DNA of 64,000 bases, from contig JADHYV010000088.1 of NCBI GenBank assembly GCA_027604705.1, positions 1 through 64,000 on the forward strand. Direction: 5' to 3'. Each line of letters begins with the position of its first letter. The stretch's first letter is position 1. Below the pieces are notes generated by a model. It was not told the origin of the DNA. It saw only the letters and a program-made list of their open reading frames with translations, and did no database searches. This DNA comes from Allomyces arbusculus. Taxonomy: Eukaryota; Blastocladiomycota; Blastocladiomycetes; Blastocladiales; Blastocladiaceae. Positions 1,620-40,983 of the stretch are shown here, one piece after another. The translations under genes and the position numbers were made by a program.

Positions 1620-4600
1620 CTACTCCCCCACCACTGGGTCTTCCCGCACTTTTCCCCGCACCACCTCCATACTCGAATACAACCACCCCAAGAACGCGGT
1701 CGCGCGCTCCTCCACTCCCTCCCCCACCTCAACCAACACTTTTCCGGGCACCAACACCTCCCTGACCTCGCGCGCCGCCGCGACCACCGGATGGGCTGTG
1801 ACAGTCACCTCCCACATCGCGCGCAACCACGGTAACAACGCATCGCCAAACGGCACGGTCAAGTTATACCCCGGCAGCGCCGCGACCGCCCTCGCCAACC
1901 CCTTACGCCCGGGCACGTCGCTTCCCTCAATCGCGCCGCGCGCCGCGGATTTCAGGTGCTGAATGCACAGCACGCGCGCGGCGGCGGGGGGCAAATTGTC
2001 CGCGTCAGTCGGGACCAAGTCCGGCACTCGCGCCGTGGTCCACTCCCGCGGCAGCCCCGAATGTTTCGCCGACTCGACCGGTTCGATGTGCGTGCCGAGC
2101 GCGGTCCATGCGGTCGCCACGAGCCCGACCAGATCGCGAAACGCCTGCACGACGTGGTTCGCGGCTGCCAACACGACCCAGGGCGAATACACTTCGCGTT
2201 GCACGGCCTGCAGACGCATCGTTGCGCGCGCAAGTTCCGTCCATGCCGGGTCGGTCACGGCCTTGACCATCGCCGCGACCAAGTCGGATGCACCGACACG
2301 GTAAATTGCGCCACGCTCGACCGCATTGCGCGCGTCCGAGTCGGAAAAGATGGTGGTGAGGTCCTTGGCCGAAAGGCGTGGCGCGCGGTCGAGTCGGGCG
2401 GTGCGCGCGGCGCGGGCCCAGTGCCGCAGCACCAGGCGCTGTATCCTGCGGCGGGTCCATGCGGCGACGGCCGGGTTCTCAGCGGTCGACGGCGCGGTAG
2501 CGGTGTGCCCATCAGAATTGGACCGTTTCGCGCGCTTACTCCAGTGACTGCGGTCCGGGATCGAGGTGCCGCGTTTGCGCGGCGTCAGTGGCGCGTCGCC
2601 CGGCACGGTCGTCGGCGGCGGGTGCGCGGCAGCGGCCGCGGCGGATTCGGCGAGAGCGCGTTCGCGCATAGCTGCGCGCGACATGGTCGGGAACACCTCG
2701 GGTGCCTCTTCCTCGTCGTCGGATGACAAGAGTTCCGAGTCGGAAATGTCGTCGAGCGTCGGCGCGGCGATCCGGATCGGCGGGAGGTCGGTTTGCGTCG
2801 ACGAGTCGGCGAGTTTTGCGGCGGCGGGTTCGGCCGCGGCTGCCAGCGGAGCGGGCGCAGGTGCAGGCGCAGGCGCGGTGGATGGCGGCGCAGTGGCGCC
2901 GAGCAGCGGGCCGCCGAAATCATTGGGCGCCGACGCGGGCTGCGGCGCGGCTGGCGCGGATGGAGTAACGGTCGGGAGCGCAAACGACAACGCCGATGGC
3001 AGCACTGGTGCGGGTGCCGGGAAGCCGCATGGGGTGAACCCGTTGGTCGCTGGGGATGCCGGGACGGCGAACGGCGACGCGGAGGTCCCCGGCGTCAGCA
3101 CAGTAGTCGCGGAACCTTGTGCGCTCGTCGTGGGCGCGGGCATCTGGAACCCGCTCGTGGCCGGCGGCGGAGCACTTGCGGTCGAATTCGCAAACAGGCT
3201 CCGCGGCGGCGACGTCGCGACAGGTGGTGGCGGCGGGATCGCGAACGCGAACCCGGCGGCCTGCGGCGCGGGCGCTGTTATCGGCAAGGCGAAAGGCGAC
3301 GCGGTCGGGGCCACCGTTGTTGCGGTCGGTGCCGGCGGAAGCGAGAACCCCGAGAATGCAGGTGCGGCGGGCGGCGGGACCGTGGAGGTGCTCGGCGGCG
3401 GCGCCGGCTGGCCAAACGGCGCGGGCACGGCGAACGGCGACACGGCTGCAGCGCCGGGCGCGGTTGGCGCAGGTGGTGCGGGTTGCTCAAAAAGGTTTGG
3501 AACGGCAAGCGGCGACGTTGTGGTCGGTGCGAAGGGTGCTGGCTCCGACGCTGCAGCAGATGCGCTCGGCGGCAGAACGAACGCAAATCCGGGGGCCGTC
3601 GCAGACGGGCCGGCCAGTGCACCTCCGGCGGGTGGAGCTGCCGCGGCAGATGCCGCAGCAGATGCCGCAGCGGCAGTCCCGATCCCGTGCCCCTGCGGCG
3701 GCGCAACCAAGACCTGCCGCGTGCGTTCCTCACCGGTGCGAATAAACTGCACGACATCGAACCCCTTGCCCAAATCGACGCGCGCATCCAAGAACGCCGG
3801 GTGTTTCTTGGTCGCGACCGGCTCCTTGATGTCAATCGCGATATCGAGCAGTGGCGCATACGCGCGCGACAATTCGATCGCCGCGTCACTTGCATCCTCG
3901 CACTCTTGGACCGGGATCGCAAACACGGCCAAGAACTCGCGGCACTCGTTCACGTCCTTGAACTGCAAGATGCGTGTGAGTGTGACCAAATCGATCCGCG
4001 TCTGCACGGCGCGCCCGCTCGGATGGAACCCGGAGAGCATCATGTCCTTGAGAGCGTCGCGCCGCAGGCGATCAAGGTGTAGGGTTACGACAAGGGCAAC
4101 ACCGAGCGGGACCAGGTCGTTCTTGAGCATCTTGATCATGCGCGCATAGTCGTAAGTCGAAATGGGCGTGCCGGGCCCGCGCTCAATCGGTGCGGCCATG
4201 TGGAGGCACAGCTGCTTTGTCGCACGCACGTACGGGTCGGTCGATTCGGCGTATTTGAGCAGTAACGCGTCGCGTTTCGCTCGGTCGGTGAAGTAGAGCA
4301 GCACCTGGTAGCACTGGAACTCGGCCTCATGCTCGGACGCGACGCCGAGCGAGTACATGTAGATCAGGTCCGATAGAACTGGTATGGATCAAGGGGGTTA
4401 CGGTCAGTGACTGGTAACATGCACGCGAGTCGAAGAAGTTCAGAGAAAGCACACGTACCACCACTGAGATCCTTGAGTTCCAAGGCGCGCACGAGACCCT
4501 CGGGTTCAAGAAACACAGCCAGCAGGTAGAACCGGATGATTTGCTCGTAAATGGTCGCGAGTTCGGGCAGGTGCAGGTGCTGTGTGGTGCGATCACGGCA

Positions 4601-6690: not shown

Positions 6691-7925
6691 TTAGAACTCT
6701 CGCTCCCACCCGCGGTCGGCTGCCGTGCGCAGCAGCGCGCTGAACCGATCGGCAAAGTCGCCGACGCCCTGATAGCTCGGAAAGTAGTTGACGTCAATCA
6801 CGTAGCGAGTGCCCGAGTGCTGGTCGACGATCACGTCGAAGCCAAAGAGAGTGAGTGACTACAGGGAGACGATAGGGGCACATGAGCGGGACGACGTGCT
6901 TCAGCTTGGGTCGCTTGAAGAGAACTGGGCGTACCAGCTGCTCTCCGATCTGGCGCGAGAGCACGCTGAGGTCGCACCGGATCGACTCGAGTTGTGCCGC
7001 GGCACGTCCACGCGCCGACTCACCGCTGTGGAGAAACGCGGCGTGGACTGGGTTCCTCTTGTCGACGGATACGGAAAACGACTTGGGGATCGTTTGCGAG
7101 TCGAACACGAGAAAATCTAGGTCCTCGTTGATCGGTCAGCCAGAAGTCTCACCATGTTGGCCAAAAATCAGCAATCGTGCCGTCGTGTACGCCCTCCATG
7201 TCGAGCGATGGCCGCAGCACGACGTGGCAGTGGTCGCCGAGCACGTAGCACTTGAAGAGCACACCATCGTGCGGTACGACCTGCTGCAGGACCACGACTT
7301 CGTTTTGTGCAAACGGGCCCGACTCCATTAAGCTTCTCCACCCGGCCGCGTTCTTGACGACGGCCATGACGTGCGCGGCCGCGGTCGACATGGCCTCGTC
7401 GCGCTTGACGAGCACGGGCCATATCGTTTCTGGGAGAGCTTGGCAGAGGGTCATGACGCGCGTGTCGGGCACCGGGCACACCAGTTGCAGCCCCGCGGTC
7501 AGAGCGCGGCGCGACAAGATGGGACCAAGCGCGGCCGGTAAAGGATCCATCCAGACCAGGTCCGGGTGCTCCGCGACCAGCGCCTCGACCTGTGCCCACG
7601 GCCGCGGGTTGCTGCGCGCCTCGAGATACGTTGATGTAAGTTTGTGCACGAGCACGTCGACGAGCGGCGTGGCCGGGCCGAGCGCATCGCCAATCTGGTC
7701 GGCGAGAGATGTCGGAGCGTCGAGGTCGAGTACGGCGAGGTCCATGACGTTGCTGACGCGCGTGGAGGTAACAAACGCGTCGATTTCAGCCTTGCCGCGC
7801 TTGTTGGGCGGGAACACGAGGGCGACGCGGAGGCGGCGCCCTGGGGCGGGTGCAGTAGGCGTTGGCGCACCCTTGTCGAGCGTGCTCGCGCCCGGGACCG
7901 GATCGCTTGGGGTTGGAGAGGCCAT
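6691..7925 (-). CDS. ITPK1: inositol-tetrakisphosphate 1-kinase (ITPK1 family)
   Basis: Three exons (7191-7925, 6935-7123, 6691-6858) joined by introns of 67 and 76 bp give a 363-aa protein, close to the usual family length. It has the ITPK N-terminal fold (LRVALVFPPNKRGKAEIDAF). The ATP-grasp core follows: an LVKRDEA segment, then VVVLQQVVPHDGVLFKCYV and LRPSLDMEG, FDSQTIPKS, and the C-terminal signature LTLFGFDVIVDQ and RYVIDVNYFPSYQGV with the metal-binding D-x-N. These enzymes phosphorylate inositol tris/tetrakisphosphates with ATP in the cytosol, on the way to IP6. The first intron uses donor GTACAC at 7190 and the acceptor at 7124. A better-looking GTGAGA at 7152 breaks the frame, so I rejected it. 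Family call is firm; isomer specificity is not visible. Confidence 0.9.
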
Positions 7926-9240
7926 AGTGTGTCGTGCAGGCGATCAAGCCGGCGTGGTCGCATCGGTTGACGGGCCAAATCGTGTGGACGTGCCGGTGCG
8001 GCAGGCTGCACACGGCGTGGTGCGTGCCTGAGTAGTGGTGGAATGAATCTGGTTTGGCCGCCGACAAGATCCCCCGCGAGGGCACGCGGTCACGTTATCG
8101 GGCGACGCTGGCTCCCCGCTCCACCCGCGTCGCACTGGCGGGCCGACCGGCGACAGGGCCGGCCTGGCCACCGCTGCCGTCACCGTGACGCGCGCTGACG
8201 ACACTCCCTTGGACCCAGGCGCCCGGATCGCGCGCGAGCGGTCTGCCGGGTCTGCGGGCGCGCTCGCGTCTCGATCTGGTGGCCGCGGCGGGCCACGTCT
8301 GCCATGATCGGGGAGCTGCTGCCCACTTTCCTTCTCACCGTCGTCGTTGTTGTGCCTGTCGTCGACAACCTCGAACTGCCGCACGCTACTGCACCACAAA
8401 CCAGGCCGCGCGACTGCCCGCATTCGACCATGGCTCGCCCACCGTCGCCGAGGCCGCCAGGGACGATCGCGGTCGCAAGTCGCGGAAGGAATCTGCCCTG
8501 CCAACCCAGGAATCTGCCGTCAACCCGAACGCCATCCATGAAGCCGCCGCCGCCACCACGCCAATCGTCGTCGCAGCGTCCAACGCACCACCAACCACCC
8601 CCGCGCGCGTTGCACTCGTCGCGCGCACGCCCCAGATCCATTGCAGCGAAGCTGGCAGGGCCGACAATGTGGGTGTGGCGTGGCGATCTTCCGCGCCGTG
8701 TCCGTTGCCTGGCTTGCTCGCCACCACCCACCACGACCACGACCACACCGCGCAATCCATTTACGGGCGGCCGGCCCAGCACGCTTCGCTGCGGACGGAC
8801 CGTGGAACGCGCGGACGCGCCCGTTTGCGATGGACGTGTGCGCCAGCGCGTGCGCCCGATGCAACGCTCACTCCCACCTGCCGTGCCCGCCGTGCCTGCC
8901 CTGCTTCCATCAGACCACCACCGAACCAAACTCTATGCCGGCCACGCCCGCGCGCTCGGCTCGACGTTGTCGGCACGGATGGCCAAACGCGCGCGCAGCG
9001 GCAGCAACATAAATGAGGAGTAGTGCCCTAGACTTGGCGCGCGTTGAGGGGGCTGACGCGGCCGCCGGCCAACCAAGTCGTGCAGCAACGACGATCTTCT
9101 CCAGCCCGGCATGCCAAGCGCCTCTCCCGCGCTTCGAGTCTCCCCTCTCTCTCGTGCTTCGTGTCGTCGCGCTCCGTCTGCAATCCCAACGCCATCGACC
9201 ACCAACCAGTACGACCCCGCGCACGATCCTTGTACCCGCC
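7926..9240. other. divergent intergenic/promoter region
   Basis: This is the shared upstream DNA of the ITPK1-like gene (-) and the Pro/Ser-rich gene (+). Several mutually overlapping frames up to 249 codons are open on both strands. They read as Arg/Pro/Ala-rich noise typical of GC-rich DNA without stops, and none shows a domain. No tRNA or repeat was seen. Confidence 0.5.
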
Positions 9241-12200
9241 ATGAGCCGGCCCTCCCCGCCGCCGCCGTCGCCGCCGCCGCCGCAGCGCACTCCGCCGCGC
9301 GGGCAGCTCGCCCCACCGACCGGATCGACCACCAATATCTCTTCCTCGAGCCCCGACCTGCCGCCCGTGCGCAACGCGTCGTGGCGCCGCGCGCGCGACG
9401 CCATCATGATGCCGTGGTCCACAGACCGCCGCGATGCGGGCACAGCAGCAACGCGCACTCCGCCCGCGCAGGAGTCCTCGGTCAACGCAAGCTTTTGGGC
9501 TCCGCGCAGTCCTGCCGCGATCACGGCCGCGCCACCTTCCAGCTCCTCGCCGTGGCCCCAGCTCGGCGCTTGGCACGGTCCGACCATGCGTGGCACGCAT
9601 GATGCTGTGCCAGCGCAAGGGGCTCCACGAGCAAGGGGGGTCCAGGAGCCGCCGACGCGGCCGATCGGTGCGAGTGCTGGCACGTCGGCGCCACCAACCT
9701 CCTCGTCTGCAAGTGTGCGCCCGCCGCCGTCCCCGCGCGCAATGCCTGCTGGGCCGACTCCACTGTCGCCGCGTCCCGCCCCGACGTACGCCTGCGCACC
9801 GCCACCATCGCCTCGCGCGGCTGTCTTCGGTGCTCCACCGCCATTGCCGCGTGCTCCCGCATTCGGCACGGCACCCCCACCATCACCGCGCGCGCTCACG
9901 TTCGGCCCTGCACCCCCACCATCGCCGCGATTCCCCCCGCCCCCGCCGCAGACAGAGCCCGTGTACGCTGCTTCACCCCTCTCCCCACGACCGCCACCCT
10001 CCCCCGGTGCCGACGCCCCGCCGCCACCACGCACCACGTCGACGCGCGCCGAATGGCGGCCCTACCGCCCACCGCGCGTCGCGGCCGACCGCGGCGTCCT
10101 GCCCCCTGCCACGCCGCAACTCGCAGTCGTCCACGCGCCCGCGAGTCCCGCACAGGTCGTCGAGTACGCATCGGTTGATTTGGACCGGCATGTGTCGCAC
10201 GCGGCGCTGCTTGCGAGGGCGGTGGAGCATGTGGTCTTGGATCCGCGTGTGGAGGAGGCGAAGCACGAGGCTGTGCGCACGGAGACGGTCGTCATGCACG
10301 AGGACCACCCCCACCACGAGGACCACGACGTGAACGAGGTGGAGTACACGACGGTCGACTCGCACCGCGACGTATTGCACGAAGCGAATGAGGTGGAGTT
10401 TGCGACACTTGACCATGCCACGGCCGCGCATCGGCTTGCCGAGTCGGTGGTCTTGGATCCTACGTCGGAGCGGTCGTCAGTGTGGTCGGTGTCCGAGGAA
10501 TCGGAGACGATGTCGTCGCATCGCGCGGCGAGCGCGTCAGTGCTTTCGTCGACGCGCGGGTCCGACGCCCTGGGGTCGATTGGAGCGCCTCCGCCGGTGC
10601 CATCGACACCGCCAATTCTGCACGTGGGGGCGCACGCAGCGGGCAGTGTGCACGGGTCGAACGTGCGCGCGGCGAGCTCGCACGTCCCGAGCTCTCACGG
10701 TTCGAGTTCGCACGCGGCACCGAGCTCGCACGGCTCGGTCGGGCGGCATCGCGATTTCGATGCCCCGAGTTCGCATGCCTCCAGCTCCCACGCTCCAAGC
10801 TCACACGCCGGGTCGGTTGGGCGGCACCACGACGTGGATGCGCCAGGCTCGCACGCGCCGAGCTCGCACGCGCCGAGCTCGCACGCGCCGAGCTCGCACG
10901 GGTCGGCCCATCGTGACGTGGAGCCCTACCGCGAGTCGGACCTGCGGCACGAAATTGACCACCAGCACCACCGTGACTCGAACCGCGAATCTGGCACAAC
11001 CACCGCCACGGCCCCTCGCTCATCCGGTGCGTCGCTCGCGTCCAAGAATGTGCGGTGGCGTCTCTCCGTCCACGAGGGCAACATGAACGACCCCGTTCCA
11101 CTATCGGGTACGGGCACGACAAGGTCTACATCGTCGACGGGCTCGAATCCGCACGGCCGCCGGCCGTCGGTCATGCACCCGTGGAAATTGCCCAATGACG
11201 TTCTTCTCGCGCCCACGCCGAACACAGACGCGCCGTGGTCGCCGTCGCCAATGCACTCACCCCGCCCACCGTCGTCTGACACCGCGCGCCCGATGGCGTT
11301 CCGGTCGGAAGCCGGGTCCCTGCCGCGCACTTTGTCGACCGCGACCACGCCCATGGCGCCACCCTTTTCCCCGGCCCCCACATCCACGACGCACCGGTCC
11401 GGCATTTCTTCCTCCACCTCGTCGCCCGGAACCGGTATCTCCACCGGCGCGCCGTGCCTCGTTTACATTCCCGCGGCGCACCCGGCGTCGTCAACGGCGC
11501 GCACGTGCGAGACGCTCGCAACGGCCACCTCGTCCACGGCTGTGGCCGCGGCCGCGCAGTCGTTACGCTGGAAGAGGCGCTACGCAGTCGCCGTTGCCGT
11601 CCCGCACGGCGGATCCGTGTTGTACCTTTCCAAGGACCCGAGCGGCGCTGCACTCGACGTGATTCTCGCGGGGAGGGGGGTCCCGGACGCATGTGTGCGT
11701 GTCCTTGGGCACGCAGCGGTGCGGATTGTCCCCGTCCCCGCTCCACCAGGCGAAGCCTCCACCACCACGACACGTCTCCGCGGCGGCACCGGCGGCGCGG
11801 GCGGCGCCGGCGAGACGGGCTCTGCGCTCGCACTGGTCCTCTCGACTCCCGCGGGCGTCGTTGTCGAAAAAGCGCAAACTGCGCCTGGTGGCAAACTCGC
11901 GCGGCTGTTCCGAGCCGCGCTCCCACGCACCCCGTCCCCCATTTCCACCGCGTCCGACTCCGACATGGACGACTGGGGCCCGACGCAAGTCACGATTCTC
12001 CGCGACACGAACACTCCTGTCGTCACGTCCCTCGCGGCCATGTCGGCGCGCTCCCCCGCGCTCGCATGGACGTCGGCGGTCCACGCGTGGCCGTTTGTCG
12101 TGCGGTTCGCGAACGCGCGCGACGCGCACGTGTTTGCCGGCGTGCTCAGCGGCGACGCGGCGCGGTCGGTCGGGGAATCGGTCGAGTTTGATTGGGACCG

Positions 12201-12633
12201 GCGGCCGTCCGCGGCCGTGTCGCAGGGAACGACTGCGGCGCTGTCGCAGACGACGGCGGAAATGCCGACGCCGCCGGTGACGCCGGTCGTGCACCGGTCC
12301 CCCGCCGCCGGCGCACCGCCGCCGCCGCCGAGACTCGTATCGAAACCGATTCCGCAGTACGTGCCTCCGCCAACGACTTCTGGGAATACGGTGCCGCCAG
12401 CGGTGCTTCCGCCCCCGGCGCACGCACTGCCGCCGACACCGACGCCCGTGACGGCAGAGACGGCGAGTCCGGGCGAGGAGTTGCGGTTGTTGCATGAGGT
12501 GTGGCGGCAGATTCAGGCAAATCAGTACCGTAACGGTGCCAGTGGCAATCGCAGGAGTCATGATCGGCCGGTGTCAGCAGTGGGCGAGGGGAACGTGTAT
12601 GATGATGTTGCGGATATTTTGGCCGCGTATTGA
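9241..12633 (+). CDS. large Pro/Ser/His-rich protein with possible PH-like C-terminal domain
   Basis: A single open frame encodes 1130 aa from the Met at 9241 (MSRPSPPPPSPPPP). The frame is open back to 9013, but that part reads like a leader. Residues 1-300 are proline-rich with PPPSPR repeats (as in PPPSPRALTFGP), which suit SH3, WW or profilin binding. A middle section repeats EY-x-S/T-V-D and H-rich units, then SSHAP/SSHGS repeats. Near residues 770-1000 there is a folded-looking part: SLRWKRRYAVAVAV, SVLYLSKDPSG, and later AWPFVVRFANARDAHVFAGVL. The WKRRYxV start plus a late hydrophobic helix resembles a divided PH domain, but I cannot confirm this. A short conserved-looking end (LLHEVWRQIQANQY) follows. 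Not recognised as a named family; a cytoskeletal or polarity scaffold is a guess. Confidence 0.6.
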   Translation: MSRPSPPPPSPPPPQRTPPRGQLAPPTGSTTNISSSSPDLPPVRNASWRRARDAIMMPWSTDRRDAGTAATRTPPAQESSVNASFWAPRSPAAITAAPPSSSSPWPQLGAWHGPTMRGTHDAVPAQGAPRARGVQEPPTRPIGASAGTSAPPTSSSASVRPPPSPRAMPAGPTPLSPRPAPTYACAPPPSPRAAVFGAPPPLPRAPAFGTAPPPSPRALTFGPAPPPSPRFPPPPPQTEPVYAASPLSPRPPPSPGADAPPPPRTTSTRAEWRPYRPPRVAADRGVLPPATPQLAVVHAPASPAQVVEYASVDLDRHVSHAALLARAVEHVVLDPRVEEAKHEAVRTETVVMHEDHPHHEDHDVNEVEYTTVDSHRDVLHEANEVEFATLDHATAAHRLAESVVLDPTSERSSVWSVSEESETMSSHRAASASVLSSTRGSDALGSIGAPPPVPSTPPILHVGAHAAGSVHGSNVRAASSHVPSSHGSSSHAAPSSHGSVGRHRDFDAPSSHASSSHAPSSHAGSVGRHHDVDAPGSHAPSSHAPSSHAPSSHGSAHRDVEPYRESDLRHEIDHQHHRDSNRESGTTTATAPRSSGASLASKNVRWRLSVHEGNMNDPVPLSGTGTTRSTSSTGSNPHGRRPSVMHPWKLPNDVLLAPTPNTDAPWSPSPMHSPRPPSSDTARPMAFRSEAGSLPRTLSTATTPMAPPFSPAPTSTTHRSGISSSTSSPGTGISTGAPCLVYIPAAHPASSTARTCETLATATSSTAVAAAAQSLRWKRRYAVAVAVPHGGSVLYLSKDPSGAALDVILAGRGVPDACVRVLGHAAVRIVPVPAPPGEASTTTTRLRGGTGGAGGAGETGSALALVLSTPAGVVVEKAQTAPGGKLARLFRAALPRTPSPISTASDSDMDDWGPTQVTILRDTNTPVVTSLAAMSARSPALAWTSAVHAWPFVVRFANARDAHVFAGVLSGDAARSVGESVEFDWDRRPSAAVSQGTTAALSQTTAEMPTPPVTPVVHRSPAAGAPPPPPRLVSKPIPQYVPPPTTSGNTVPPAVLPPPAHALPPTPTPVTAETASPGEELRLLHEVWRQIQANQYRNGASGNRRSHDRPVSAVGEGNVYDDVADILAAY
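10660..10915 (+). repeat. coding tandem repeats (Ser-Ser-His units)
   Basis: Within the Pro/Ser-rich gene, units such as GAGCTCGCACGCGCC (15 bp) recur; three nearly perfect copies lie around 10859-10903. They encode S-S-H-A-P and S-S-H-G-S units interleaved with GRHRDFDAPSS-like longer units, so a higher-order repeat is also present. The repeat keeps the frame. Such tracts often vary in length between strains. Confidence 0.75.
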
Positions 12634-17149: not shown

Positions 17150-20100
17150 ATGGGCCCAGGAGCGGCAACTCGGAGCCGTCTCGGCAGCAACAATCGTGGC
17201 CAATTCATTCGAGCAACACCGTTCACAATGGTCGCGGTGGTCGCAGTCGCGCTTCTTTTGGTAGTCACGTTGCTCGCCGGTCCAGCGATTCACGTTGCTG
17301 CGGTCCCGACCAATTTGACTGTTCTCGTCATCTTGCCGCTCTCCGATGCCAGTACGTGGCGTGTGTTTCATCATGCTTCAGAAATCGAACTGACCCTGGA
17401 GACGCGACTGTTCGTAGCCCTCGGATCGGGCTTCCGCAGTATCGCCGATGTGCTGGCGCTCGCGCCGCCGACCATGGCCGCGATTGATCCGAACCACAAC
17501 TACCAGTTGCTCATTCGCAATTCCGCGTCGGTGCGGTTAACCGCCGTCAACGCCCTTGACGCGGCCGTGACCCAACAGCCAGTCCACGCTCTCGTCGGCG
17601 ACTACAGCTCGCGCGTCACGCTCGGCCTCGCGCTCGCGGCGTACCCGAAGGGGCTATGGCATTGCGGTGTGAGTTCTGCGACGGATTTTGACAATGCCGT
17701 CGATTTCCCGCGCTTCTTCCGGACCATGAGCGTACGAAATTCCGGCCTGTCCGTCTCTGTCGCCGAGGATGCGATTCTGACCGTTCACCGGGTCTATTTG
17801 TCCACGGCTGTGCAGAACGACAATCAACAAGGTCGTGCTTTAGCACAAGCGGCCAGCGCCATGGGATGGAAGGCGGTCAACATTCTCGCGGTCGCAGATA
17901 GTTTTGGCCAGTCGCGTGCGTTGCCTTGATTTTCCCCGCTGCACGCTCGAGCATCAAGCTCACGACACCTTTCTCAACCTCTACCACAGTCTCACAAACT
18001 TTTGCTTCGTCGGCGTCATCGCTCGGCATTTCACTCTACTCAACGCAGCAGTACCAGCCGGGCACGACCGACTTTGGCGCGTATCTCGATACGATTGCCG
18101 CAAGCGGGTCCAAGGTCATTGCGTTTCTTGGTTTCCCTGCCGACGCCAAGCTCGTGTTCCGGCAGGCCAAGCTCCGTGGGATGATTGGCCCGGACTGGGC
18201 GTGGGTACGCGATTGCAAGGACTTAATTACTTGATAGCCCGTTCTGACCTTGTGCGTGGTGTAGATGGGCCCCTCGACGTTCATCATGTACCTTGATTCC
18301 ATGAGCGACCCGGTCGACAAGCAAAATGCCGACGGGTTCTTGTTCACGAGCGTCAGCGAGGACCGTTTGTCCTCACAGTACTTGTCGCTCAATTCGCAGT
18401 ACCTGACGCAGTATCCGACGCGAGACAGCTCGGCGTTGCATGGCTACGCACTCCTCTATTACGATTGCCTGCTCGCACTGGCGTATGGTACGTGAGCGGT
18501 GGGTGAGGAGAAAAATGTTGCCGCGGTCTCATTGTTGAGCCACGTTGTTAGGATTCAACGCATTGATCACGACGTACGGCGACGCGGCGATCCAGTCCAA
18601 AAACTACTCGGCGCCATTGAGTTCGTTTTTGGTTCCCTTCAACGGCACGACCGGGGCCGTGTCGTATATCGCGCCGGGAACGCGGGCCATGTCTGTACAA
18701 TTTCGCGCAAAGCCCTTCTGGTTTGGCAAACCACTCATGCCCCAATAACGCGCGGCTGACAACAGGGACTGGGAAATCTTCAACATCTACGGCGGCACTG
18801 CGCGCTCGACCTACAAGCTGTGGCAGAACGGCACGCTCACGAAATCGGCGAGCCCGATTTTCTACGGCGGGTCCATGACCGTCCCCATTGACCGCCCGCC
18901 GCTCACCATCGCCTTCCCGCAGTGGTCCAACCCGGGCGTTATGGCGCTCGCGGCGATCCGCGCCATCATGATGGTAATGATGCTCACGGGCATGGGCTTT
19001 CTCGTCGTGCATCGCCACGAAAAGCAGATTCGGCAACTATCGATGCCGTTTTTGCTCATCATTTCGCTCGGGTGCATCCTGATCCTCGCGGCCGAGTATC
19101 TGCTTATCGACGTGCCGAGTGCGCCAACGTGCCATGCATCGGCGATCGTGTTCACGTTGGCGTTTGAACTCGTGTTTGCGTCGGCCGTGGCCAAGACGTA
19201 CCGGGTACTTGCGCTCCCTCCTTCGCGTTTTGGGCGCGACCAGGGGCCTTGTTACTGACTGCTCCTGGCCATGGCAGATTTTCCGTATTTTCGCAAAGTA
19301 CACAGATTCACTCAGTCTCGAAGCTTCTCTGCTTCGTGTTCCCGGCTGACTGTACTTGTCTTTTTCAAACCCAGCACCCGGATCAACAAGGGCGGGCTCA
19401 AATCGGCGATCTTGCTGCGTCAAGTCGGTATGGTGCTCGTGGTCCAAGCAATCCTGTTTGCGATTTGGATTGCCGCGTTCCCTGTGTGGCCAACGCTCGT
19501 CACAACCAAGGCGTCCATCTACTATTTGTGCTCGCCATCCAACATCACGGGCCACTGGGCGGTCGTGGGCCTGACGTTCGCGTACAATGCGACCTTGTTG
19601 CTCGCCGTGTGCTACCTTGCGGTCAAGACACGCAACGTCGACTCGTCGTACCGCGAAACGTCGTGGATTCTGCATGCAGCACAGGTGCGGTTCTTGTCCA
19701 CCTGTTTGACATCCTCACGCGACCGTTTTGTGATCGATCACTGACTCGCAGCGTTACAAACTAGAACGTGGCGTTGTGCAGCGTCGTGATCATCCCACTC
19801 AGTTTTATCACCATCGAGTCGTTTGCGCTCACGGCCTACTACGTGCGGTCGATCGCGATGCTCTACGCGGTCGGGTTCACCTACATGGCCCTCGTCGGCC
19901 GTCTCCTACTCGCCGTCTGGGCTGAGTCTCGCACCGTCGGCATCCCGCATATCGACGGGCTGAACACGTCGCTCAAGACCACGGTCGATACGCAGTTTCC
20001 ATCCAAGTCCGCGGCCCCCTTGGGCGTCATGCCGCAGGAGCGGCGCACGAGCAATACCAGTCCGACCACGCCCACGACCGCGGTCACACCGAGCGCCGAA

Positions 20101-20685
20101 CTTGCGGGCCAGTTCCCGGTCCTGCGCCGCGGCGGTGGGTTGGGGCTCTGGGAGCGGTTCACGCAGACGTGGTACACGCAGCTCGTCTACCTGAACCTGG
20201 CGCGCGGATTTGCCGTGATTGCGCCGCCGCCGACGCCGACCGGAAGTGCGGGCGGCACAAGCACGGCCAAGCGGCCACAGCAACTGCAGCACCGCACGGC
20301 GGCGCGCAAGGGGGGCGATGAAGGTACGGGGATCGCGATCCCGCTGGCCAATCTCGGATTTGACGCGTCGCCCGCAAGCACGCCGCCCGCGTGCCTCGAG
20401 CTCGTGCATTTCGGGTCGGGAGCGGCATGGGTTGTGCAAATGAGCGGTGCCGAGGAAGTGGCTGCGTGGGCACAGGTGCTCAAGTCGGTGGTGAGCGTGA
20501 TCACGTCGACCGGGTCGCGCTCGGGACAGGCATCGTCGAGCGGCGCCGGCGGCACTGTGACCGCCGCAAGCAGCACCATCACGGGGAGCACAACGTTGGG
20601 CGCGGGCCGGAGCGCGACCACGTCGTCGCCGCCGGCGCAGCCGCTGCGGTCGGGCTATTCCGAGGCGATCCGCAGCGAGTCCTAG
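17150..20685 (+). CDS. class C (GABA-B-like) GPCR, receptor 1 of the array
   Basis: Ten exons (17150-17351, 17418-17731, 17816-17915, 17990-18204, 18265-18487, 18552-18690, 18766-19204, 19278-19297, 19375-19684, 19765-20685) total 2883 nt, 960 aa. A signal peptide precedes AVPTNLTVLVILPLSD. The ectodomain has a type I periplasmic-binding fold (AIDPNHNYQLL, ALVGDYSSRVTLGLALAA, DNQQGRALAQAASAMGWKAV) and no Cys-rich domain, as in GABA-B receptors. The 7tm_3 region starts near residue 453 (EKQIRQLSMPFLLIISLGC, SAPTCHAS, KTYRIFRIF, KTRNVDSSYRETSW), followed by TM6-TM7 from residue 655. The tail holds two conserved blocks (about 765-815 and 841-899, ending EEVAAWAQVLKSV) that resemble a split PH domain. 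Exon 8 is only 20 nt. Intron 1 (66 nt) has no stop and keeps the frame, so retention would insert 22 aa. Unlike its paralogs it lacks the intron after RETSW. Ligand unknown. Confidence 0.9.
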
Positions 20686-21487: not shown

Positions 21488-24400
21488 ATGCCGTCGATGG
21501 CCAAATCACGGCGGCCACCCCGACCCATGTCCCCGATTCTGCGCCTGGGAGCGACCATGCTCCTTGCCCTCACTCTCGCATTAATGACGCTGCAGTCATG
21601 GTCGTTTGTCGCTGCAGTTCCGACCAACCTGACCGTCCTCGTACTACTGCCTCTGTCGGACCCGAGTACGCTCTGTGTCCATGCACCAGCACGCTGCTCC
21701 AGTCGGTCCCTGACTCGAAACCATCCATTTCTAGCCGCAGCCGCCGTCTTTCGGAGTTTTGCCGACGTCATGAGTGTTGCGCCGCCGGCCATGAACGCAA
21801 TCGACCCGGACCACAACTACCAGCTTGTCGTTCAGGACACGGGCGGTGTGCGGAGCAACGCCGTCACTTTGCTGCTGAACGTGACGGCCCAGCAGCCGGT
21901 GCACGCACTTGTCGGCGAGTATTCTTCGCGCGTCACTCTCGGTGTCGCGCTCGCCGCCAACTCGCGCCGGCTTTGGCACTGCGGTGTTGCCTCTGCGATT
22001 GATTTCGACAACAAGCAGGACTTCGGATCCTTTTTCCGGATCGCTCCTGTGCGTCTTTTTCTGACAACGGTGAAAGAATGTAGGTTCAACGCTGACACAT
22101 CCATCATGAATACGTATGTCGACCAGAACGACAACCAGCAGGGACCGGTTCTGGCCCAGTTTGTCGCGTCCATGTCGTGGCGCGCCGTTAACATCCTCGC
22201 CGTCGCGGATCCGTACGGCCAGTCGCGTATGTGCTCATCGTGGTCCCGTGTGTCTCTTTACCTTGACTCAATGGCCATGCTCGTCGGAATCTAGTCTCGT
22301 CGACTTTCTCCGCGTCGGCCGACCGGCTCGGTATTTCGCTCTACACACTGCAGCAATACGCGCCCGGAACGACAGATTTTGGCGTCCATCTTGACACCAT
22401 TCGCGCCGGCGGGTCCAAGATCGTGATGTTTTATGGGTATGTTTCTTTCCATTTTTCACCATGCGACCTCGCACTTGGACTAACCCACGTACGTTTATGT
22501 TTCGCAGCTTCCCCGGCGACTGCAAAGTGATTCTGCGGCAGGCCAAGGCCAAGGGGATGGTGGGGCCCGACTGGGTCTGGGTACTTGTTCACAAATCGAG
22601 TTCATTCGATTCTCGGCGTGCTTTTCTTTGCTCTCATTGCTCTTCACGCCAGGTCGGGACCCACACGATGTACAATTACCTCGACACGCTCACCATGGAC
22701 AGCGACCGACGCCTAGCCGACGGCATGCTGTTTTCCGCGCTGCGCGAGGACCACTCGACGCCGGAATACCAGGCCTTGCGCTCCTCGTTCCTCGCTCAAT
22801 TCCCGTCGCGGTCCGAGTCGGTGCTCGGCGGCTTTGCGCTCATGTACTTTGACTGCTTTTTGGCTCTCGCCAAGGGTGCGTACATTGTCGCGTCGACCTG
22901 CACTTGAACGTGCTGACCGTACTGACAAAACTGCGTGGCATTCGTACGCCCAGGGTTCAAGAAGATGACGACGCTCTATGGCGAAGCAGCCGTCCAGTCG
23001 CACTCGTATTCCGCGACGTTGCCGGAATTTCTGTCGCCGTTCAATGGCACGACGGACTCGGTTGCCTTCACAGAGCAAGGAAGTCGAATCGTGTAAGCCT
23101 TTCTTTTGTATTGCTGTGCACGGTTACCGCTTTCCTTGACCAAGCGCGGCACTATTCACACTTCTATTCGTGTAGGCACGAGTGGCAGATCATGAACATC
23201 TACAACAATTCGAACCGTGCTTCATACGCCGTGTTTGAGAGCGGCCAGGTGGAAAGAGTCGCTGATCCGATTTTCTACGGCGGGTCGATGACCATTCCGG
23301 CCGACCGCCCACCGCTCGCGATTGCTTACCCGCAGTGGAACGACATGGGCGTCCAAGTGCTGGCCGTGATCCGCGGGCTCATGATCCTGGCCATACTCGG
23401 CGGCATGACGTTCTTGGCCATGAATCGCGCCGAAAAGCAGATTCGGCAACTGTCGCTGCCATTTTTGCTTTTCATCTCGCTCGGCTGCGTCCTGATCCTG
23501 GCCTCTGAATTTATACTGATCGGTGTGCCGAGCGCGCCAGCGTGCCACGCATCGACGGTCGTGTTCACGTTTGCCTACGAAATGGTGTTTGCGTCGGCCA
23601 TCGTCAAGACTTATCGGGTCCGTTTTGTGTTCTCTTCGCCTGCTTGGGCGGGTACATTTACCTGTTGCTCGTTGACTGACCCTTTATCGTCCAGATTTTC
23701 CGCATCTTTGACAAGTGCGTGTTCGCGCAAGATCGAGCCTTCTCCGTATCCGGCTGACTCCTCTTCCGGCACCAGCACGCGCATCAGCAAAGGCGGGCTC
23801 AAGTCGCACGTGCTGTTCCGCAACGTGGCCATGGTCATGGCAGTGCAAGCGGTCTTGTTTATCATTTGGGTCGCTGCGTTCCCCGTGTGGCCGGCGCTCG
23901 TCACGACCAAGACGTCGCTCTACTACGAGTGTCGCCCGACTAACGTTGCTGGTCATTGGGCCATTGTCGGTGCCTCGTTTGCCTTCAACGGCGTTATGCT
24001 GCTCCTGCTGTCGTACCTGGCGTACAAGACGCGCAATGTGGATTCGTCGTACCGCGAGACGTCGTGGTACGTCCTGATTCAGATCCCTTCATGGGCGCTC
24101 GTCGGACTTGGGCTAACTGACACGGTTCGGTTATTGTCAAGGATTCTTCATGCAGCTCAAGTGAGAATCTTCCCCGTTCATGCTTTGCGAGCTCTCAAAC
24201 ACTAACTTACTTTAAACGCCAACAGAACGTGTTCTTGTGCAGCGTCGTCATCGTGCCGCTGAGTCTCATGACCATCGAGTCGTTTGCGCTCACGGCCTAC
24301 TTTATTCGCTCTGTGTTCATGCTGTACGCCGTGGCCTTCACGTTTATGGCCCTCGTTGGTCGGCTCATTGTGGCCGTCTGGATCGAGCACCAGATCAAGG

Positions 24401-25161
24401 CGGTGACCCCTACCACGCTCATATCGACGACGCTCGCGTCCGCGGCTGACGGCCAGTTCCACCTGAGACCGAAGGGGTCCTCTGCCGACGGCGAGTCGCC
24501 CATGATACCGCGTCGCAGTACGACCGCCGGTTCGCCCGCGCAACCCACCAGCACCAATGGTGTGCCCGGATCCGAAATGGGCGGCGTCTTCCCGGTCCTG
24601 CGCCGCGGCGGCGGGCTCGGGTTCTTTGAGCGGTTCACGCAGACGTGGCGCACGACGCAAGTCTATCTTAACGTATCGCGCGGTCTTGTTGCGATTGCAC
24701 CACCGCCGCCCGGACTTGGGGTCGCGCGGAATGCGGGTGGAAGCACGACGTTGCGCAAGTCGGTGCGGAAACGAAGTGTTGCTGCACCCGCGGGCGCGAA
24801 CCACGACGAGCCCATGGGAGCCGCGATCCCGCTCACGAGCCTCGGGTTCGATGCGTCCCCCGCGGGCGCGCCGCCCGGGTGCCTCGAGTTGGTACATCTC
24901 GGATCGGGCGCCGCGTGGGTCGTGCAAATGAACGGGCCGGAGGAAGTGGCCGCGTGGACACATTACTTGAAGGCGGTCGCAAGCGTGATCACGTCGACGG
25001 GGTCGCGCACGGGCCAGACGTCGTCGTCGTCGGGTGGCACGAATAGCGCGACGAGCAACGTGATCGCGAGCGGGCGCACTCTGGCGTCGCAGTCGCCGTC
25101 GCCATCACCGGTGCCTGTACGCGCCAACTCGGACCGGATCATTCGCATGGCCGGGGGTTAG
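21488..25161 (+). CDS. class C (GABA-B-like) GPCR, receptor 2
   Basis: Twelve exons (21488-21665, 21735-22048, 22127-22226, 22295-22436, 22508-22580, 22653-22875, 22954-23092, 23176-23617, 23695-23714, 23776-24066, 24142-24160, 24226-25161) total 2877 nt, 958 aa. This gene has the fullest intron set of the array, including micro-exons of 20 nt (IFRIFDN) and 19 nt (ILHAAQ). Signal peptide, binding-fold ectodomain (AIDPDHNYQLVV, VGEYSSRVTLGVALAA, NDNQQGPVLAQFVASMSWRA) and seven membrane spans follow the family plan. The TM3 Cys (SAPACHAS) and the loop Cys (YYECRPTN) could form the class C disulfide. The tail carries FPVLRRGGGLGFFERFTQTW and LGFDASPAGAPPGCLELVHL ... EEVAAWTHYLKAVAS, the PH-like halves near residues 768 and 844-902. 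Its middle is closest to receptor 4. Ligand and G-protein partner unknown. Confidence 0.9.
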
Positions 25162-28537: not shown

Positions 28538-31500
28538 ATGCGTGCGAGGTCCAGGCCGCGGCCGCCATCACAGCAAGCGGCACCGCCGCCACTACTCCGG
28601 CGCCTTGGACCCGTCTGGCTCGCGTGGACTCTGATCGCGGCGCTGGCGCTACAGCCATGGCAGTTCGCCGCAGCCGTGCCGACCAACTTGACGATCCTGA
28701 TCCTCTTGCCGCTTTCCGACCCTGGTACGCCGCGAAAATGATCGAACTTGTGCAATTTTGGCTGCTCAGATGTCATTCTTTTGCAGGCGGGAACCCGAGC
28801 ATCTACCGCAGTTTCCAGGAGGTCATGAGCATCGCGCCGCCGGCCATGAACGCGATCGACCCAAACCACAACTACCAGCTCTTGTTCCAAGATACGGGCG
28901 GTGTGCGAGTCAACGCCATGAACGTGTTCCTCAATGTCACAAGCCAGCAGACCGTGCACGCGCTTGTGGGCGAGTACGCATCGCGTGTGACGCTGGGCGT
29001 TGCCCTCGCAGCCAACAATCGTCGGCTCTGGCACTGCGGTCTCGCCTCGTCCATGGATTTCGATAACAAGATTGATTTCCCATTCTACTTTCGGCCGACT
29101 CCGGTGCCGTTTCCATTCATTCGCCCGCGCGCAATGAGGGTCGTTTGCTAACGCTGTTGCGTTTCCAGAACGACAACCAGCAAGGCGCAATCTTGGCGCA
29201 TTTTGTCTCGTCCATGTCGTGGCGCGCCGTGAATATTCTCGCCGTTGCGGACCCGTTCGGCCAGTCGCGTGCGTATCATTCATACCAAATCACCGCAGAT
29301 GATTTGCCGTACTCACGGAGCCTCGTTCGGTTCGTAGTGTCGGCAACGTTTTCGACCGCGGCCGACCAGCTCAGCGTGTCCCTCTACTCGCTTCAGCAGT
29401 ACCTGCCCGGCACGACCGACTTCACCGTGTACCTTGACACGATTCTCGCGAGCGGGTCCAAGATTGTCATGTTTTTCGGGTTTCCAAACGACGCAAAGTT
29501 GATTCTGCGGCAAGCAAAAGCCAAGGGCATGGTCGGGCCGGACTGGGTCTGGGTACGCGTTTGCGGTCGCGTTTACTCAGCTCTTGACATGCCTTTCTGT
29601 TCTCTCACCACTCAGCGTCCCTTCTCGTCCAGGTTGGGACGCACACGATGTACAACTACCTCGACAATTTGGCCACGGAAACCGACCGCCGCCTCGCCGA
29701 CGGCATGCTGTTTACGACTCTGCGCGAGGATCACTCAACACCGCAGTACCAGACTGTGCGGTCACAGTACCTGGCCCAGTACCCGTCGCGGCCCGAGTCG
29801 CTGGTGTCGGGATTCGCGCTCACGTACTACGACTGCCTCCTTGCGCTCGCCTACGGTATTGGCCCTTCCTCCCGCGCACCGCCATTTCATGTTACTGGTT
29901 GCGCCGACTGACCGTTCACTTCCGCCGTCCAGGATTCAACAAGATGACGACGCTCTACGGAGACGCGGCGGTGCAGACGCACTCGTATTCGGCCAGCGTC
30001 GCCGATTTCTTGGTTCCATTCAGTGGAACGACGGGCTCGTTGACGTTCTTGCCAACTGGAAGCCGCGATGTGTGCGTGGTTTGTGCCTGCTTCTCGCACC
30101 GCTCTCGACTGATGCTAATCCCTGTGGCTCCCCAGCCGCGAGTGCCAGATCATGAATATCTACAATGGTTCCGCTCGCGTTGCCTACGTCATGACGCCAA
30201 GTGGGTCGGTGGACAAGCTCGTCGACCCAATATTCTACGGTGGTTCGACTGCGATCCCCGTCGACCGCCCGCCGCTCGCGATCGTGTACCCGCAATGGAC
30301 CGATGCGGGCGTCCAAGCCCTCTCCGTGCTTCGCGGGCTCATGATCCTGACCATGCTCGGCGGCACGGTTTTCCTCATTGTTCACCGCGCCGAAAAGCAG
30401 ATTCGACAGCTGTCGCTCCCGTTTCTGCTCGTCATTTCGCTCGGTTGCATCCTGACCCTGATCTCCGAGTACATTCTGATCGGCGTGCCGAGCGCGCTGG
30501 CGTGTCACACGTCGACGATCGTGTTCACGTTTGGGTACGAAATGGTGTTTGCGTCGGCGATTGCCAAGACATACCGGGTTCGTCTTCTGTTTGCACATCA
30601 TGCAGCCAGCGACTTTCAGTGCGCGTTGGCTCGACTGACACTCGCTTGCCTGCGACACAGATTTATTGCATTTTCGATAATTCGCGAATCAGCAAGGGCG
30701 GGCTCAAGTCGCAGGACCTTTTCCGCAATGTCGCCATGATCATGGCGTTCCAGGTGATTTTGTTCATCATTTGGATTTTTGCCTTCCCCGTGTGGCCGAC
30801 GCTCGTCGCGTCCAAGACGGCCGCATGGTACGAGTGCCGCCCGACCAACGTGGCCGGCCACTGGACGATCGTTGGACTCTCGTTTGCCTTCAACAGCATC
30901 ATGTTGCTGTTCGTGTGCTACTTGGCCTATAAGACGCGCAACGTGGATTCGTCCTATCGTGAGACGCATTGGTACGCCCTTCTGGTTTGTTCTTATGCTA
31001 TTTGTACCGATCCCTGACTCGGTTCCTCTCTCTACCGACAAGGATCTTGTACACCGGACAGGTACTTTGAAACACACGCCTTTCTCCGCTCGTGCTGCCC
31101 TTCAAGCTGACACCAGCGCTCGCTCCGTCGTAGAACGTGTTCGTGTGCTCGGTCGTAATCATCCCGCTGAGCCTCGTCATGGTCGAGTCGTTTGCGCTCA
31201 CCGCCTACTATATTCGCGCCGTGGCCATGCTCTTTGCCGTCGGATTCGCCTACCTCGCCCTCGTCGGTCGACTGGTCGTGGGCGTGTGGATGGACCACCG
31301 CCTGGCCGCGGGCATTGTGCCCGCCACCAAGCTGAGTGGCACGATCGCGTCGGTCATTGACGCACCCGCTCAGTTCAAGCTCAAGGGCGCGTCGACCAAC
31401 GAACTCATGAACCGGTCGAATACGGTCCTCGGGCAAGCTGCCGGCGCGGCGATTGGCGTACCCGGATTCGAAGTCGGCGGCGTCTACCCGGTCTTGCGGC

Positions 31501-32090
31501 GCGGCGGCGGGCTTGGGTTCTTTGAAAAGTTTACGCAGACGTGGCATGCGACACAGGTCTACATGAACATGCCGCGCGGGATTGTCGCGATTTCGCCGCC
31601 GCCGTCGACCTCGACTGCGGCCACGGGTAAGAAGAATACGGGCGGTGGGAGTACGACCGTGCGCAGTTCCCTGCGCAGCAAGCGCGGGGCGGCCGCGGCG
31701 GGCGAGGAGACGGGGACCGTGATTCCTCTTGCCGGGCTCGGGTTTGATGCGTCGCCCGCGGGCGCGCCGCCCGCGTGCCTCGAGCTCGTGCATTTGGGTT
31801 CGGGCGCGGCGTGGGTGGTGCAAATGACGCCCGAGGAAGTGGTCGTGTGGTCGCAGTACTTGAAGGCGGTCGCGAGCGTGATCACGACGGGGACTGGGTC
31901 ATCAACGGGCGGGTCTCGGTCGGGGAATGGACATCTGTCCAGTGGTGGCGGCGGTGGCGGTGGTGCTGGCACCACAAGCATTCCGGCGATCAGTGTTGGC
32001 CGCCCGCCCATGTCGCCCGATGCGGCGCGTGGTACGGGGCGGGTGCAGTCGCAGCGGCCGCAGTTGGGCGCGGGCGGGGACTTGGAGTGA
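28538..32090 (+). CDS. class C (GABA-B-like) GPCR, receptor 3
   Basis: Ten exons (28538-28724, 28787-29103, 29169-29268, 29338-29552, 29633-29855, 29933-30071, 30136-30577, 30661-30971, 31043-31061, 31134-32090) total 2910 nt, 969 aa. After a signal peptide (LIALALQPWQFAAA region) comes the binding-fold ectodomain with AIDPNHNYQLLFQDTGG and VGEYASRVTLGVALAA, then the 7tm_3 domain. The KTYR motif is followed by IYCIFDN, unlike IFRIF in most paralogs. The 20-nt micro-exon seen in receptors 1 and 2 is fused to the next exon; the 19-nt exon (ILYTGQ) is kept. The intron within MFFG/FPND is absent. The tail PH-like blocks lie near residues 768 and 846-903. From about 31748 to 31890 the DNA is practically identical to receptor 4. 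The receptor should sit in the plasma membrane with its ectodomain outside. Confidence 0.9.
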
Positions 32091-32860: not shown

Positions 32861-35800
32861 ATGCCCGCGACGATCATGAATTCAGGACGGCGCAGGGCCT
32901 TCGGGTCAGCCTGGTTTACCTGTTTCTTGATTTTTGCACTCACACTCCGCCTATGTCTGCTCACGGTTGCTATTCCGACCAATTTGACGATCCTGGTCCT
33001 CTTGCCTCTGAGTGATCCGAGTACGCCGCGTGCACGCGCGGCCTGGTTGGCATTCCGATGCTGAATACTGATCTGCGCGAACCATGCCCGATAGCCGCAA
33101 GCGCTGTGTTCCGGAGCTTCGCCGACGTGATGAGCGTCGCGCCCGCGGCCATGAACGTAATCGACCCGAATCACAACTACCAACTCATCGTCCAGGACAC
33201 GGGCGGCGTCCGTTTCAATGCCGTCAGCCTCCTGCTCAATACGTCGCTCCAGCAGCCCATCCACGCCATTGTCGGTGAGTATTCCTCGCGGGTCACGCTC
33301 GGCGTCGCGCTCCTCGCCGGCGCGCGCAAGATTTGGCACTGCGGCGTTGCTTCTTCCGCAGATTTCGACAATCCGCAAGATTTTGGACTCTTTTTCCGCG
33401 TCGCGCCAAATGACAACCAACAAGGCCCGATCCTGGCCCAGTTCGTTGCGTCAATGTCGTGGCGCACCGTGAACATACTCGCCGTCGCCGACCCGTACGG
33501 CCAGTCGTGTACGGGCGCTTCTGTCCCGATCGGATAGAAATCTGTTTTCATACTCACAATCCATTCGTTGACCAGTGTCGGCAACGTTCACTACCGCGGC
33601 CGACCACCTCGGCATTTCGATATACGCGCTGCAGCAGTACCTGCCCGGGACGACCGATTTTGCACCGCATCTCGATGCGATTCTCGCGAGTGGGTCCAAG
33701 ATCGTGTTGTTCTTCGGGTACATACGCTTTCTTTCCCCTCGACACAATACCGGGCTTGAAGAGACACACTCACGTCTTTCTCGTAGTTTCCCTGGCGACT
33801 GCAAAATCATTCTGCGGCAGGCAAAAGCCAAGGGTATGGTCGGGCCCAACTGGGTCTGGGTACGTGTATTTTTCGGTTCAGGACATGCATTTCCGTCCTC
33901 TAACCGCACTGCTCCGCTTACTTCTTGCCGCAGGTCGGGACCCACACGCTGTACAACTATCTCGACACGCTCACCATGGACAGCGACCGACGCCTGGCCG
34001 ACGGCATGATGTTTTCTGCGTTGAGAGAGGACCACACTACGTCCCAGTACCAAGCCTTGCGCTCCTCGTTCCTAGCGCAGTTCCCGTCGCAGTCCGAGTC
34101 GGTTCTTGGAGGCTTTGCGCTCATGTACTTTGACTGCTTCTTGGCTCTCGCCAATGGTGCGTGCTTTGTAGTTCCGATTTGCGTTTGAACGTACTGATCG
34201 TACTGACGAAATTTCTGCGGTATTCGGATGCTCAGGGTTCAAGACGATGACGACTCTTCATGGCGAAGCAGCTGTGCAGGCGCGCTCGTACTCGGCGACG
34301 TTGCCGGAGTTCTTGTCGCCGTTCAATGGGACGACAGGTTCCGTTGTGTTCTCAGAGAGTGGAAGTCGGATTGTGTACGTTCTGCGCCCTGTTTTTTGGT
34401 CATGACCTGTGTGCGTTCGTCGACTTGTTTGACCAACACGAAGCGATCTGGTGCCTGTTCCCTTGGAGGCACGAGTGGCAGATCATGAACATCTTCAACT
34501 CCTCGAACCGTGCCGCGTACGTCCTGTCGGACAACGGCCGGGTGGACAAGGTTACCGACCCGATTTTCTCCAGCGGGTCGGTGATTATTCCCACTGACCG
34601 GCCACCGCTCGAGATTACTTACCCGCAATGGTCTGACCCAGGCGTCCAGGCTCTGGCCGTGATTCGCGCGCTCATGATCCTGGCCATGCTTGGCGGCATG
34701 ATTTTTCTTGGGGCCAACCGCACCGAAAAGCAGATTCGGCAACTGTCGCTGCCGTTTCTGCTCGTCATTTCCCTCGGCTGTGTCTTGATCCTCGTGTCCG
34801 AGTACATTCTGATCGGCGTGCCGAGTGCACCGGCGTGTCACGCGTCGACGGTCGTGTTCACGTTTGCATATGAGCTGGTAATTGCGTCGGCAATTGCCAA
34901 GACGTATCGGGTTCGTTATCGGTCACGCATTGCGTTCGGATACTTTGGCGTGCCCTCTTGACTGACCGTGTTTTCGCTCAGATTTTCCGTATCTTTGATA
35001 ATTCTCGGATCAGCAAGGGCGGGCTCAAGTCACCGGACCTCTTCCGCAACGTGGCCATGATCATGGCCGTCCAAGCGGTCTTGTTCATCATTTGGGTCGC
35101 TGCGTTCCCCGTCTGGCCAACACTCGTCACAACCAAGACGTCGCTCTACTACGAGTGCCGCCCAACTAACTTTGCCGGTCATTGGGGCATTGTCGGTGCC
35201 TCGTTTGCCTTCAACGGCGTCATGCTGCTGCTCGTGTGCTACTTGGCCTACAAGACGCGCAACGTGGATTCGTCGTATCGCGAGACGCATTGGTATGTTC
35301 GCGCTCTTGCTTTGCGGGACCGTCTCGTGGATTGCACTCAATCCATTTTTCATGTTCACCCACCAGGATTCTATACACGGCGCAGGCACGTTTCTTGCAA
35401 ACGGCGACTTGGCGCAGGATGTGAACTGACCATGGCCCCGTTTCCTATGGGCCCATTTCCCATTTTCCAGAACATATTCTTGTGCTCTGTGCTTATTATC
35501 CCGCTCAGCCTGGTCACAATCGAGTCGTTTGCGCTCACCGCCTACTTTATTCGTGCCGTGGCCATGCTCTTTGCGGTCGGGTTCGCCTATACCGCTCTTG
35601 TCGGACGGCTGATCGTGGCCGTGTGGACGGACCGCCGACTTTCGGCCGGTGTGACGGCCGCCGGCGTTTTGAGCACGCCCGTGGCCACCGCCGCGACCGA
35701 TCCGAATGGTCCGTTCAAGCTCAAAGGGTCCGTCGAGAACCAAATTGGCGCGTCGAAACCATCGTCGGGCTCGGTTGCTGGCGTGCCTGGTGCCGAATTG

Positions 35801-40978: not shown

Positions 40979-40983
40979 TTATT
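40978..40983 (-). terminator. AATAAA polyadenylation-type hexamer overlapping the midasin stop codon
   Basis: Read on the minus strand the sequence is CACAATAAAAG. The TAA stop of midasin (40979-40981) lies inside an AATAAA hexamer. If used as a poly(A) signal the 3' UTR would be only some 10-30 nt. The match may be chance. Confidence 0.3.

Follow-up and report, generated by a model that had tools for sequence, protein, structure and literature searches.

We found that five class C receptors encoded in tandem on contig JADHYV010000088.1 of Allomyces arbusculus share a two-part conserved tail, and that each tail probably forms a PH-fold domain, a strand barrel with a C-terminal capping helix that carries the PH-typical Trp, broken by an insert (probability roughly 0.8). 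This reading is supported, not proven, by a profile comparison with three controls, by the strand order of a predicted structure and by Foldseek. Our best reading of its role is a membrane-proximal, non-catalytic docking module, which is a prediction. Coordinates refer to the window, the whole 64,000-nucleotide stretch analysed (positions 1 to 64,000 of the contig).

Five tandem receptor genes of one family

The window holds five tandem plus-strand genes that belong to one family. The first, g1 (17150–20685), was assembled manually by splicing at GT-AG sites, supported by its paralogs, and encodes 1010 aa in eight exons (17150–17915, 17990–18204, 18265–18487, 18552–18690, 18766–19204, 19278–19297, 19375–19684 and 19765–20685). 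For the other four, with approximate starts, exons 5–8 were spliced: g2 (21605–25161; exons 5–8 within 23180–25161), g3 (28613–32090; 30140–32090), g4 (32915–36409; 34473–36409) and g5 (37168–40640; 38768–40640), the last with its first exon partly found. All five spliced models matched 7tm_3 in Pfam (5e-33, 6.4e-31, 2.7e-33, 2.1e-32 and 8.3e-36 for g1 to g5), so the class C assignment proposed earlier is firm. The ectodomain of g1 is an ANF_receptor domain (Pfam, 9.3e-21); those of g2–g5 were recognized through exons similar to g1’s by tblastn only.

The genes differ in their small exons. A microexon of 20 bases stands alone in g1 (19278–19297) and g2 (23695–23714) and is merged into the next exon in g3–g5, and one of 19 bases stands alone in g2–g5 (24142–24160, 31043–31061, 35367–35385 and 39661–39679) and is merged into the preceding exon in g1. 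Since these exons are separate in some paralogs and merged in others, introns have been gained or lost among the five genes. The in-frame model of g4 requires a GC-AG intron, with its donor at 35386, after the 19-base exon.

Several other open reading frames (ORFs) surround the array. A cytochrome P450 ORF (26360–27406, plus strand; PF00067, 3e-32) lies between g2 and g3 and breaks the tandem arrangement. Ending close to g5 on the opposite strand is an uninterrupted ORF of 4673 aa (40979–55000, minus strand), in which ATPase motifs recur and the tail is acidic; on these grounds we take it to be midasin (Rea1/Mdn1)-like. Also on the minus strand are an ORF of the SAC3/GANP family (1620–4358; 5.4e-10) and, near the receptor cluster, an inositol 1,3,4-trisphosphate 5/6-kinase ORF (7149–7925; 2.3e-10). 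A low-complexity ORF of 1206 aa (9013–12633, plus strand), lacking a Pfam match, contains the string LRWKRRYAVAV, which resembles PH strand 2. It scored 18.96 against PH in hhalign over only 11 columns, and from its sequence this ORF may encode another protein with a PH domain next to the receptors.

Conserved blocks on either side of a diverged insert

The tail is encoded by the final exon in all five genes, shares its reading frame with the last two transmembrane (TM) segments and stays open to the stop codon. Its order after the last TM segment is the same throughout: a linker of 59–67 aa, an N block of 40 aa, an insert of 33–38 aa, a C block of 58–59 aa and a Ser/Thr-rich end of 50–68 aa, with the linker and insert likewise rich in Ser/Thr. 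In g1 the N block occupies 20107–20226 and would hold PH-like strands 1–3 (from the alignments, with strands 2 and 3 in the predicted model); the diverged insert, which would separate strands 3 and 4, occupies 20227–20325; and the C block, with predicted strands 4–7 and the C-terminal helix with its invariant Trp (from the alignments, the model and Foldseek), occupies 20326–20502. Alignment and profile scores place the PH-like region at 24574–25002 in g2, 31470–31898 in g3, 35795–36226 in g4 and 40080–40511 in g5.

The earlier note had described two such blocks in all five receptors, and both are present where it placed them. The variable insert that it put at 30–50 aa falls at the low end of that range as partitioned here. 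Its residue numbering, about 760–900, described a region that exists but sits later in g1, at residues 816–956 of 1010, and its wording QVYMNMPRGIVAI is exact in g3 and g4, with variants in the other three receptors.

Amino acid identity over the ten pairs of paralogs separates these parts clearly, at 57–88% in the N block and 67–97% in the C block vs 21–40% in the linker, 16–45% in the insert and 22–48% in the C-terminus. We estimated dN/dS on the alignment of the five paralogs with our own Nei-Gojobori script. The C block (0.09–0.41) is constrained to about the same degree as TM6–7 (0.10–0.34), and values elsewhere in the tail are higher: 0.55–1.20 in the linker, 0.50–1.32 in the C-terminus and 0.32–1.06 in the insert, where one further pair had saturated dS. 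The tail is thus a two-part conserved unit flanking a freely changing insert, a block pattern that exceeds chance. In the N block, dN/dS was mixed and noisy (0.16–1.54) because synonymous divergence there is unusually low.

That low synonymous divergence is an observation in its own right. Between the N block of g1 (20107–20226) and its counterparts in g2–g5, dS is 0.22–0.75, compared with 0.49–1.51 in the upstream TM6–7, which hints at gene conversion or exchange between copies, or at constraint on the DNA itself in this part of the tail.

A search for relatives of the tail gave 67 pattern matches in viral contigs and 47 in genome contigs, none of which was confirmed by tblastn. Pfam searches of the tails of g1–g5 returned no catalytic family above the cut-off, the single sub-threshold row being Chlorophyllase in g1 (E 0.26).

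Profile comparison places the tails near the edge of the PH range

Direct searches gave no PH assignment. Pfam PH models, including PF00169, matched neither the five unedited last-exon tails nor three of the five insert-free cores at E≤10, nor the spliced receptors (g1 at E≤10, g2–g5 at E≤1); these negatives are to be read with the HMMER filters in mind, which discard most matches above E of about 0.1. Searches of PDB sequences with tail profiles gave no hit, and single tails as queries found nothing apart from two iron-binding proteins (E 1.3) in one search. Assigning the tails to a family directly from Pfam or PDB sequences was therefore dropped, and since neither source gave a match we built our own PH profile from nine PH domains, all nine of which are matched by PF00169. 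PH was the sole domain family profiled.

With this profile, hmmsearch gave weak scores, 3.0–7.0 bits for the unedited tails and 3.7–7.8 for the insert-free ones (E 0.2–7). Between 85 and 117 of 200 shuffles per gene received a reported score, at most 1.7 bits, and when 793 chunks were ranked, the tails of all five genes were within the first 14. Every unedited tail was outscored by one chunk, at 7.7 bits, from an ORF lying antisense to the midasin-like gene, and for this reason the search is not decisive alone.

Profile-profile comparison separated the tails from background more sharply. The insert-free alignment of the five tails, of which hhalign retained four rows, scored 24.9 against the PH profile over 86 columns (probability 27%), and the alignment including the insert scored 25.3 over 41 columns (22%). 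Column shuffling provided one control: 200 shuffles had a mean of 10.0 (sd 1.9, maximum 15.7), and the reversed alignment scored 9.9. Single unedited tails scored 19.6–24.3 vs a mean of 10.3 and a maximum of 15.4 for 116 windows of the midasin-like ORF. When receptor 1 was scanned in 87 windows, the seven over the tail scored 19.1–24.7 and the next best 10.8, which is also the maximum among the 61 windows that stop short of residue 750. Similarity of the tails to PH, in the PH order of strands, is above all these backgrounds.

We calibrated these scores on true PH domains. Each of the nine, scored against the other eight, gave between 26.6 (PLC-delta1) and 86.5; against the same eight-member profiles the tails scored 18.0–30.0 as cores and 17.7–26.7 with the insert, with probabilities swinging from 2 to 62%. 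The tails thus lie on, or slightly outside, the lower margin of the scores of true PH domains. The features aligned with PH over the 86 columns include the Trp of the last helix, which is invariant in the five tails, a QTW that precedes strand 2 and, within strand 4, (I/M)PL.

One predicted model shows PH strand order

We ran AlphaFold2 twice on the same five sequences, with g3 first and then, once that result was known, with g1 first and no templates. The g1 tail was chosen because it has the shortest insert and the highest single-sequence hhalign score. The g3-first run was unusable (pLDDT 39), with a helix in place of strands 1–2, and the best 50 Foldseek rows for it had unrelated proteins on top, and proteins with a PH domain came at ranks 16, 29 and 44 only. 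The g1-first run gave one model with a mean pLDDT of 51.6 and four at 36–41. In the best model, strands 2–7 and the capping helix follow one another in PH order (E30–33, E38–41, E79–82, E86–90, E99–104, E110–114 and H118–138), with the insert between strands 3 and 4. Block means of pLDDT are 64–81 over residues 81–140 and below 50 over residues 1–29 and 43–77. Strand 1 is missing, and the Gly/Arg-rich first strand proposed in the earlier note falls where pLDDT is below 50. Structure prediction thus shows strands 2–7 and the helix of the PH plan in one model of five from the g1-first run, but g3-first yielded no usable fold.

Foldseek against the PDB with the g1-first model gave 745 matches at E≤10, and the figures here come from the best 50. 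Of these, 28 have titles naming PH or pleckstrin and one is a ribosome; we take the remaining 21 to bear PH folds as well (Tiam1, Dbs, Exo84, GRK2, Trio, AKAP13, ISP1 and MS0666). PH-type proteins thus make up 49 of the best 50 rows (28 by title, 21 by what is known of the protein) for a query model of low confidence, although the rows repeat a few proteins and do not give the domain aligned in multidomain chains. The best E was 0.018 (probability 1.00), none was below 0.001, and TM-scores by query length were 0.22–0.47.

Charge distribution and a proposed mode of action

Net charge divides the tail in the same way in all five receptors: +3 to +4 in the N block, +3 to +5 in the insert (+3 in g1) and –3 to –4 in the C block. 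A comparable split is known in PH domains. The inositol-phosphate motif of PH strands 1–2 is a basic K/R-Xn-K/R-X-R, and searching the 51 residues around the N block for [KR]X3-13[KR]X[KR] found it in none of the five tails. The two positions after the QTW Trp, presumably basic in AKT1, are Y, R, H, R, T and Q, T, T, T, T in g1 to g5. Lipid binding, one of the two functions offered in the earlier note, is thus unsupported in its canonical form, and we rank a canonical phosphoinositide pocket lower because the motif is absent.

The missing motif and the charge split together lead us to favour charge-based membrane contact plus a protein partner. The PH-fold domain, joined to TM7 by about 60 aa and broken by a basic, probably flexible insert of 33–38 aa, would rest its basic half (N block and insert) against the acidic inner face of the membrane by charge, not through a classical inositol-phosphate pocket. 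Its acidic C half would be open to binding by a protein partner, for which G-protein beta-gamma and a Rho/Ral-type GTPase are the likeliest candidates, and the tail would act as a non-catalytic docking module that holds this partner beside the receptor. We put forward this combination of membrane and partner tentatively, at somewhat less than even odds. The choice of these two candidate partners comes from the nearest structures and the position of the tail, not from data. A little more doubtful is the fuller proposal that a non-canonical split PH domain in class C receptors docks G beta-gamma or a Rho/Ral GTPase and senses membrane charge via its basic insert.

Alternative readings of the tail

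A different view of function, which leaves the fold unchanged, is that the receptor is oriented through a specific inositol lipid, bound by the tail acting as a classical phosphoinositide-binding PH domain. The N block and insert are net basic in all five receptors, regions that correspond to the loops lining the lipid site in PH domains, and lipid- or inositol-phosphate-bound PH domains of Slm1 and ASAP1 are among the Foldseek rows. The absence of the motif from every tail and the mismatch with the AKT1 residues after QTW nevertheless make this rather unlikely.

Two further readings concern the fold. The tail could be a small beta domain with a helix cap, PH-like or of another kind, that is not homologous to PH and has a private protein-binding role. 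The silence of the Pfam PH models, the lack of the standard lipid motif and of strand 1 in the model are consistent with this, as is the presence among the Foldseek rows of ISP1, which has a PH fold but does not belong to the classical family. We consider it distinctly improbable, however, given that the Trp, QTW and (I/M)PL align with PH over 86 columns and that ordinary PH domains fill the top Foldseek rows. Least probable of all, and to our minds very unlikely, is a largely disordered tail in which the blocks are short linear docking motifs, such as kinase, arrestin or scaffold sites. Tails of animal class C receptors are often motif-rich and disordered, which we counted in its favour along with the Ser/Thr-rich linker, insert and C-terminus and the pLDDT of 39 in the g3-first run. 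Yet blocks of 40 and 58–59 aa conserved throughout, a C block constrained like TM segments, and a g1-first model with a strand pattern and a fairly confident C block all argue for a folded domain, and we retain the PH domain with an insert as the preferred reading.

Relation to known receptors and PH domains

The tails resemble the PH domain (PF00169), and in particular the split PH domain of PLC-gamma1 (2fjl, rank 16 of the best 50 of 745 Foldseek matches), in the predicted order of strands 2–7, the capping helix with its Trp and the insert between strands 3 and 4, which is also where the PLC-gamma insert lies. They differ in having no Pfam match, in being attached to a seven-helix receptor and in their insert, a short basic loop; that of PLC-gamma1 consists of two SH2 domains and one SH3 domain, according to the available text of PMC10296670. 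A second likeness is to the PH domain of GRK2, which works beside receptors and with G beta-gamma and accounts for eight of the best 50 Foldseek rows. GRK2, however, is a separate kinase, whereas the tails are part of the receptor chain and their binding of G beta-gamma is a conjecture.

Fungal class C (Glutamate) receptors carry 7tm_3, many with ANF_receptor, and are enriched in Blastocladiomycota and Chytridiomycota, with 78 in Allomyces macrogynus (available parts of PMC3251606 and of PMC12842992, where they are ‘Class 16’). In 7tm_3 and ANF_receptor they resemble g1–g5. Krishnan et al. 2012 (PMC3251606) describes the N-terminal domains of these receptors, and the available text of that paper and of PMC12842992 (J Fungi 2025) has no occurrence of ‘pleckstrin’, ‘C-terminal’ or ‘PH domain’. 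GPCR-bigrams likewise join a seven-helix receptor to a C-terminal cytoplasmic signalling domain, but their partners are catalytic (PIPK, INPP, AC, PDE and TKL, some with DEP), unlike the tails described here, which have no catalytic family; neither ‘PH domain’ nor ‘class C’ occurs in the available text of the two papers (PMC6033456, PMC5784254). The earlier note knew of no class C receptor fused to a PH module, and we found none described in the open-licence text examined; other sources, such as genome databases, may record one.

Zoosporic fungi have many class C receptors, whose cytoplasmic side goes unmentioned in the available text of the literature examined. A PH module in the tail, if the reading is true, would amount to a new architecture for receptors and would give a compact and testable handle on the coupling of these proteins to membranes or G proteins. 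If the docking proposal also holds, the receptor would bring its own effector-docking PH module, so that one chain would do the job of separate animal kinases such as GRK2.
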